Part shown: positions 27,701 through 35,939 of the stretch, piece by piece
Layout of the letters: each line of letters starts with the position of its first letter
Position numbering within the stretch: position 1 is the stretch's first letter
Source: Gloeobacter morelensis MG652769
GTDB taxonomy: Bacteria > Cyanobacteriota > Cyanobacteriia > Gloeobacterales > Gloeobacteraceae
Direction: 5' to 3'
DNA: 64,000 nucleotides
NCBI RefSeq assembly: GCF_021018745.1
Contig: NZ_CP063845.1
Coordinates: forward strand, 2,170,001 to 2,234,000
Program-made: the position numbers and the translations under genes
Notes under the pieces: generated by a model
Databases searched by the model: none
Told to the model about the DNA's origin: nothing
What the model saw: the letters and a program-made list of their open reading frames with translations, nothing else

Positions 27701-27747
27701 GGAATCGGCGGTACTCTACAAAACAATACGCCTCAGCCTTCGGAAAG

Positions 27748-28693
27748 ATGCTTCCCTACCGCATCGGAATCGCCCACGCTCAAGCGGGTGCACCGGTCGA
27801 GACACTCATCACCTTCGACCCCACCACTGGAGAATTGCCGGAGGGGGTCACCGTCGATAACTGTGGCAATGTCTACGTGGGCATCGTCAGCACGGGCGAG
27901 CTCCGCAAGCTGAGCACCACCGGCGAGCAGTTGACTCTCGCAACCCTGGATACGGGCAGGGGACCGGAGGCGGGCTACGGGCTGGTGGGACTGGCGGTGG
28001 ATCCTGCAGGTAATGTCTATGCGGCGCTCGCCTCGTTTGTGGAGGCCACCCACGGTGTCTGGCGCGTCCGCCCCGACGGAGCGAGCGAACGCCTGGCCGT
28101 CCTGCCCGTGACCACGGTGCCAAACGCCCTGGCCTTTGACCGGCGCGGCAATCTTTTTGTCTCGGACTCGTTGGGCGGCAAGATTTACCGCGTTGCCCGC
28201 GGCGCGCGCCTCGCCGAGGTGTGGTCGTCGGATCCGCGGCTGGTGGGCGACCTTTCTCTGGGTCTGGAGGCCGTCGGCGCCAACGGCGTCGCCTTCTACA
28301 GCGGGGCTTTGTTCGTCGCCAATTCGGACGCCGCCCGCATCTACCGCATCCCGGTCGCCCCCGACGGCAGCGCCGGAAGGCCTGTCCTGCACTTTGACGG
28401 CATACAGGTTCCCCGGCATCGCCTTCGACGTGCCGGGGAACCTGTATGCCGTCACCGGCCCCGGCAATACTCTGATCAAGGTCGCTGCAGACGGCACCGA
28501 GCAGGTCTTGGCCTCGGTGGAGGATGGCCTTGATTTTCCGGCGAGCCTGGCCTTTGGTCCCGAGGGCGAGCGGCGCGATCTGTATTTGACCAACGCCGCC
28601 TTTGTTTCGCTTGCCAATCCCAGCTTGCAGAGGCTGCAGACGGCGCAGCCCAGATTGCCCGGCCGCTTTCCGGCCGGTTGCAGGGCAGACTGA
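27748..28693 (+). pseudogene. NHL/SMP-30-like beta-propeller protein, frameshifted
   Basis: Propeller blades are readable as LPEGVTVDNCGNVYVGIVST, YGLVGLAVDPAGNVYAALAS, PNALAFDRRGNLFVSDSLGG and NGVAFYSGALFVANSDAARI. After HFDG the frame is lost and continues +1 as GIAFDVPGNLYAVTGPGNTL, then FPASLAFGPEGERRDLYLTN. A 16-bp insertion at 28402-28417 causes the shift. There is no signal peptide and the N-terminus may be truncated too. Relatives are SMP-30/gluconolactonase-like or NHL-repeat proteins of unknown substrate. Confidence 0.78.
28395..28454. repeat. Perfect 24-bp palindrome created by a templated insertion
   Basis: Arms 28395-28418 and 28431-28454 are exact reverse complements around a 12-nt loop. 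The left arm contains ATACAGGTTCCCCGGC (28402-28417), the reverse complement of bases just downstream in the gene. Removing these 16 bases restores the protein frame DGIAFDVPGNLYA. Confidence 0.9.
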
Positions 28694-29874: not shown

Positions 29875-30083
29875 CAGGGCTTTTTCGTTCTCTGTAAGAT
29901 CAGTTATGCTTAATTCGTTAACCTGCCTGACGCAGAGCCTGCTATCAAAAGGAATTCTGTACATCCTCTATTAAGAAAAAAAATTTACTGGTCTTAGGTG
30001 CTCTGCTGTTGATGGCGGTCACAGCGAAGCTGTGGCTACGACTTGGTTTCAGCAAATTGATGCTCCAGAATGAAAAAGCCCTG
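29875..30083. mobile_element. MITE-like element, copy 1 (about 209 bp)
   Basis: Nearly identical to 35572-35780. Terminal inverted repeats CAGGGCTTTTTCGTTCT (left) and CAGGGCTTTTTCATTCT (right, other strand). No transposase inside; the short frame on the minus strand (MYRIPFDSRLCVRQVNELS) is shared by both copies and is probably not a gene. It truncates the methyltransferase fragment. No flanking duplication is visible here. Confidence 0.8.
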
Positions 30084-35334: not shown

Positions 35335-35571
35335 TTGCCGGCAGCTAAGCAAATATATTTTACAGCAATGTGCTTGTGGTTATGCTTCTATAAACGCTTT
35401 TAAAAATGCTCAAATACAGTGCTTGAATTGGTTGCTCTTTGGTTGGGGTTTTGTTTGGTTTGGCACGAAGATCTGTGGGTGCGAGAGGTGGAACCCCCTT
35501 CGGGTTCCCCTCTCGCGCTCTCCCCCTCCTCCCCGCGTCGAGGGGGCTGCCAGCCCCCGACACCCCCGGAC
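35335..35571. repeat. Non-coding region with a GC-rich interspersed repeat, copy 1
   Basis: From about 35485 the sequence holds a hairpin (GGTGGAACCC / GGGTTCCCCTC) and GC-rich tracts ending CCCCCGACACCCCCGGAC. On the other strand this resembles 57977-58050 over about 75 bp. The repeat resumes at 35781 (CCCCCGGACTGAGCGGCACG), split by the MITE. Confidence 0.55.
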
Positions 35572-35780
35572 CATGGCTTTTTCGTTCTCTGTAAGATCAG
35601 TTATGCTTAATTCGTTAACCTGCCTGACGCAGAGCCTGCTATCAAAAGGAATTCTGTACATCCTCTATTAAGAAAAAAATTTACTGGCCTTAGGTACTAT
35701 GCTGTTGATGGCGGTCACAGCGGAGCTGTGGCTACGACTTGATTTCAGCAAATTGATGCTCCAGAATGAAAAAGCCCTGC
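35572..35780. mobile_element. MITE-like element, copy 2 (about 209 bp)
   Basis: Copy of 29875-30083 with a handful of differences. Ends CATGGCTTTTTCGTTCT and, on the other strand, CAGGGCTTTTTCATTCT. It is flanked by a roughly 9-bp duplication CCCCCGGAC (35563-35571 and 35781-35789). The uninterrupted target can be seen in the related repeat at 57977. Confidence 0.85.
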
Positions 35781-35939
35781 CCCCCGGACTGAGCGGCACG
35801 CTTGGGAACGAGGCTTGGCGGGTGGGATAGGCTTATTGTTCCAGTGCGTGCACGACGCGTGCCGACTGCGGCATAGTGCCGAGTAAGCGGTGCAGTCAGA
35901 AAGGGTGGCTGAATGCGTGAATCTCTGCTCCAGGTAGCC
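35781..35939. other. Non-coding stretch between MITE copy 2 and an IS remnant
   Basis: It begins with the second half of the interspersed repeat (to about 35801). After that I see no gene or clear structure. Confidence 0.4.

Follow-up and report, generated by a model that had tools for sequence, protein, structure and literature searches.

We analysed a 64,000-nt stretch of DNA from Gloeobacter morelensis MG652769 (contig NZ_CP063845.1, positions 2,170,001 to 2,234,000 of the forward strand), hereafter called the window. Within it lies the remnant of a beta-propeller gene that contains a perfect palindrome (Table 1). The first-pass annotation had proposed a beta-propeller gene as host, and this was borne out by Pfam matches of the first reading frame. 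The remnant belongs to the SGL/strictosidine-synthase-like/ScyD-ScyE-like class, in which the NCBIfam ScyE_fam match falls under the cut-off. The homologous locus L004 was 41% identical to the first frame over query residues 12-217. The two open frames reported earlier, 27727-28401 and 28418-28693, do differ by a one-base offset, and the second piece opens with IAFDVPGNLYA.

Table 1. Features of the beta-propeller locus, in window coordinates.
Feature	Position	Strand	Evidence or remark
Second-lesion junction, 173 bp of sister genome G001 missing here	27765..27766	+	
Beta-propeller gene remnant, frame 1, starting within the signal peptide	27766..28401	+	Pfam SGL, SSL_N, SBBP; ScyE_fam (under cut-off); L004
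Left arm of the palindrome, putative templated (new) copy	28395..28418	+	24/24 complementary to 28431-28454; lies where 18/18 homologues carry a conserved Asp missing from the read-through; the 16 bp of the first-pass annotation are 28402-28417
Palindrome loop, 12 nt, native coding sequence inside IAFD	28419..28430	+	
Right arm of the palindrome, putative donor, native coding sequence VPGNLYAV	28431..28454	+	In-frame alignment with homologues (GNLYV, GNLYG, GNLYA)
Same beta-propeller gene, frame 2, ending at a stop codon	28418..28693	+	tblastn matches colinear with frame 1 in several homologues; alignment

The palindrome was found with the letters and at the place first reported, and its full arms of 24 nt are longer than the 16 bp that had been named. 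The arms are 100% complementary and are separated by a loop of 12 nt. In the 64-kb window this was the sole perfect inverted repeat with arms of at least 12 nt and a loop no longer than 60 nt, and it also ranked first in an independent mismatch-tolerant inverted-repeat scan. At the base composition of the window, about 5e-8 perfect repeats with an arm of at least 24 nt and a loop of up to 60 nt are expected per 64 kb. The same genome was sampled in 40 evenly spaced 20-kb stretches of the chromosome (800 kb), which held 19 perfect repeats with arms of at least 14 nt, four of them with at least 18 nt and the longest with 20 nt. The sister genome G001, sampled over 400 kb, held six perfect repeats with arms of at least 14 nt, and none reached 18 nt. 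When the 16-mer was searched in its own genome (5.10 Mb), the two palindrome arms were the only sites at zero or one mismatch, and one additional site was found at two mismatches. Folding of 28390-28460 as single-stranded DNA gave -35 kcal/mol (z = -9.9). The palindrome is templated and statistically unmistakable, and it is of a known mutation type: as in a quasipalindrome mutation, the new bases are the reverse complement of a tract that lies tens of nucleotides away.

The orthologous locus was then compared among the genomes of the genus. The syntenic copy in G001 aligns with the window gene on both sides and carries, between the window neighbours 27765 and 27766, 173 bp that comprise a ribosome-binding site, a GTG start codon and the greater part of a signal peptide. 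Because the homologue L004 also starts with a signal peptide, it is the window copy that has suffered the loss. The window gene retains an in-frame ATG at 27748, from which some translation without export may start. The G001 copy is itself dead: it has a TAG in its first third and an unrelated 3' end, and window bases 27959-28471 are replaced in it by 8 nt, a deletion of about 513 bp. None of the lesions is common to both species, neither the palindrome and the 173-bp loss of the window copy nor those of G001. Since the deletion in G001, the only orthologue found, spans the palindrome site, no orthologue shows an empty site. The closest genome, G002, is 95-98% identical where compared; of its matches flanking the window locus, the one on C95 runs to window position ~22845 and the one on C41 begins at ~37025, both at the end of a contig, and the locus is unassembled there. 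G003 gave no match to the gene at E<=1e-5, and 386 genomes of the phylum gave no match beyond the own genome at E<=1e-20.

Between the aligned remnants of the window and G001, 7, 9 and 20 differences were counted at codon positions 1, 2 and 3, respectively (chi-square 8.2 for equal numbers, 2 degrees of freedom). This skew suggests that some coding constraint persisted after the species split. The host gene once encoded a secreted beta-propeller protein, and its remnant bears at least one more lesion, a deletion that is probably inactivating; therefore, the palindrome need not have been the cause of gene death. The description of the palindrome as a fresh gene-killing event had left out this 173-bp loss, and was not upheld. 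The only sign of freshness is the perfect match of the arms, and repeated switching could also keep them perfect.

Homologues were aligned at the palindrome site. The set comprised 19 loci, namely L004, L085-L090 (6), L105-L109 (5) and 7 of 11 plasmid matches. L107 was left out because its extracted frame ended short of the site, so that 18 homologues were aligned. L004 was the sole locus used from the 79 distinct loci of one search; among the matches listed, most others of those 79 loci showed several overlapping repeat registers. The homologues are about 24-45% identical to the window gene, and the choice between replacement and insertion is based on them. At the site, all 18 hold 5-10 residues more than the window gene after removal of the 16 bp, as counted by hand from the printed alignment: 5 in each of the six cyanobacterial homologues, 6 in each of the six actinobacterial ones and 7-10 in the remaining six (L004, L105, L106, L108, L098 and L109). 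An interval of 22 nt here corresponds to 21 to 36 nt in the homologues. The first-pass annotation had held that deletion of the 16 bp restores the gene. The frame is indeed restored, as arithmetic requires, and the native gene is probably not regained, given the longer loops of all 18 homologues.

No homologue had a comparable inverted repeat within the 90 nt surrounding the site, where the longest arm was 8 nt. The VPGNLYAV encoded by the downstream arm matches GNLYA, GNLYG, GNLYV and similar sequences in the homologues, and the upstream arm encodes nothing common to them. Because the product of the downstream arm aligns with homologues and that of the upstream arm does not, the downstream arm is best read as the original, or donor, and the upstream arm as the new copy. 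The proposal that 28402-28417 is a templated copy of the adjacent arm stood up, given the 24/24 match of the arms, the lack of any perfect repeat above 20 nt in the 800-kb sample, a donor unique in the genome at up to one mismatch, and a comparable repeat in 0/18 homologues.

These results point to a quasipalindrome-type, short-range template switch during replication that rewrote 28395-28418, a reading to which we give a probability of roughly 80%. The growing strand would have annealed to the adjacent arm, either its own or that of the opposite strand at the fork, and would have copied 10 to 24 nt of this arm in reverse complement. It would then have gone back to its own template at CGGCA, bases common to both, leaving a perfect 24-bp hairpin and a frame change of +1. 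CGGCA is present at the return point both in the donor copy and in the native continuation, and the junctions share bases on both sides, TGACGGCAT/ATGCCGTCA and CGGCA. The 9-nt match TGACGGCAT/ATGCCGTCA exists now, and if native sequence was replaced, this match too may be a product of the copying. From this arrangement we infer both the switch itself and the replacement of native sequence. In the simplest single event, at least 21 nt of native sequence would have given way to a copied tract of as many as 24 nt. Within the template-switch reading, we lean toward replacement, because all 18 homologues carry the additional residues at the site; that the tract was purely inserted is a sizeable but lesser chance. 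Judged from the alignment, an overwrite of native bases is more probable than an insertion.

The clean insertion of 16 bp claimed at first is a sub-case of the same mechanism, in which the strand would exit and re-enter at the same TGACGGCAT with no native loss. The 9-nt primer match and a return match of 5-6 nt would suit such an event, and the joined flanks give DGIAFD, which fits the conserved D-[GD] ahead of the IAF motif. However, the product would be shorter than every one of the 18 homologues by the residue counts given above, and thus a separate earlier deletion in the loop would be needed. We keep this explanation as a tentative one; as a clean insertion into an otherwise healthy gene it is not preferred, in view of the homologue lengths and the 173-bp loss. 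Subtraction of one base rather than 16 gives the exact residue number of the six cyanobacterial homologues, as if the palindrome were native and in frame (IQVPG-IAFD) and the sole recent change were the gain of a single C by the CCCC run. Yet the Asp that stands two residues ahead of the IAF-like motif in 18/18 homologues is absent from the window read-through IQVPG, and the palindrome itself is found in none of them. The one-base slip is disfavoured by this Asp and appears improbable.

An artefact of assembly or sequencing, arising from an inverted chimeric read, has to be weighed, since the palindrome was read from the assembled sequence. Such a chimera must switch twice within about 24 nt and then resume the original sequence, and the 800 kb sampled from the same assembly contained no perfect repeat above 20 nt, which argues against a general chimera problem. 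Three of the next four longest repeats are, moreover, hairpins that are whole or nearly whole in sister genomes. We consider an artefact very improbable. A functional hairpin, for instance a small repeat element of palindromic type or an intrinsic terminator, would agree with the strong fold and with the appearance of the other long sampled repeats, which look like short-loop hairpins and are in some cases conserved between species. Against it, the stem lies inside a former coding frame as a single copy, has no Rfam match and is flanked by CCTGCACTT and CCGGCCCCG, with a T-run on neither side. It was also missing from the output of the terminator scan, although loops there are limited to 8, so that a loop of 12 nt would have been passed over in any case. 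An intrinsic terminator was rejected for the lack of a following T-run, and a repeated palindromic element (REP or MITE-like) was rejected because many copies would be expected and the two arms alone were found at up to one mismatch. A functional hairpin is hardly credible.

The four sampled repeats used for comparison have arms of 18-20 nt. In L126:2669-2723 (G000:C1, 20-nt arms), one arm exceeds its counterparts in G002 and G001 by about 4 nt, and these extra bases match the other arm. Such a gain is what template switching would leave, and it is a possible second case. The stem of the 19-nt hairpin at L114:13173-13213 is retained, with paired base changes, in G002 and for the most part in G001, and an equally strong hairpin is present in G002 for L139:8488-8527. 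For L120:14091-14132, no sister-genome sequence covers the hairpin, and the comparison is with a second copy in the own genome only. The palindrome tract and L126:2669-2723 would fit template switches that overwrite sequence, and do not only add to it, as a recurrent source of mutation in the genus, a reading that is doubtful. If it held, the two outcomes of a single process would be preserved in dead genes and in hairpins.

Several other repeats were observed. The dead copy in G001 (L084, G001:C1:1186355-1189561) ends beside a perfect hairpin whose arms measure about 23 nt, as judged by eye. Two modules of the window, 35455-35571 and 35780-35872, recur widely in G002, where they are usually adjacent; they had 4 and 2 matches, respectively, in the 800-kb sample of the own genome and lie about 208 bp apart in the window. 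Between them, ~35577-35697 appears by eye to be a near-identical copy, about 120 bp long, of ~29876-30000 upstream. A stretch of about 144 bp, L120:13790-13933, has numerous partial matches, which extend to all four genomes of the genus.

The quasipalindrome mutation mechanism is known in Escherichia coli, where a thyA hotspot and lacZ QP reporters are described (PMC7202029). As in the E. coli quasipalindromes of that report, a local inverted copy would have produced a perfect inverted repeat and a frame shift, with a short loop and a return at shared bases (PMC7202029). The lacZ reporters described there change 4 bp, whereas the event in the window would have copied 10-24 nt, and the window case is a natural event in a cyanobacterial pseudogene rather than a reporter construct (PMC7202029). 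In the four-point model of short-range template switches, a median copied length of 12 is reported (PMC7954356). The window tract of 10-24 nt is near this median, and in both cases native sequence may be replaced by the copied tract (PMC7954356). In contrast to the window case, the switches of that report were found in hominid alignments in which the ancestral state is known (PMC7954356). Template switching has also been described in the origin and upkeep of RNA hairpins (PMC8794818). The perfect stem that one event would have given resembles the origin of RNA hairpins presented there, and unlike those hairpins the window stem carries no sign of function (PMC8794818). The synteny of the genus is treated in PMC13237429, and template switching in connection with Gloeobacter was not found in the literature searched.

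The palindrome leaves knowledge of the template-switch mechanism unchanged. It offers a clean natural example, from a deep-branching cyanobacterial lineage, of a mutation type for which most study has relied on laboratory reporters. Moreover, it indicates that an apparent simple insertion may hide overwritten native bases, and that homologues reveal such an overwrite where the sequence by itself does not.
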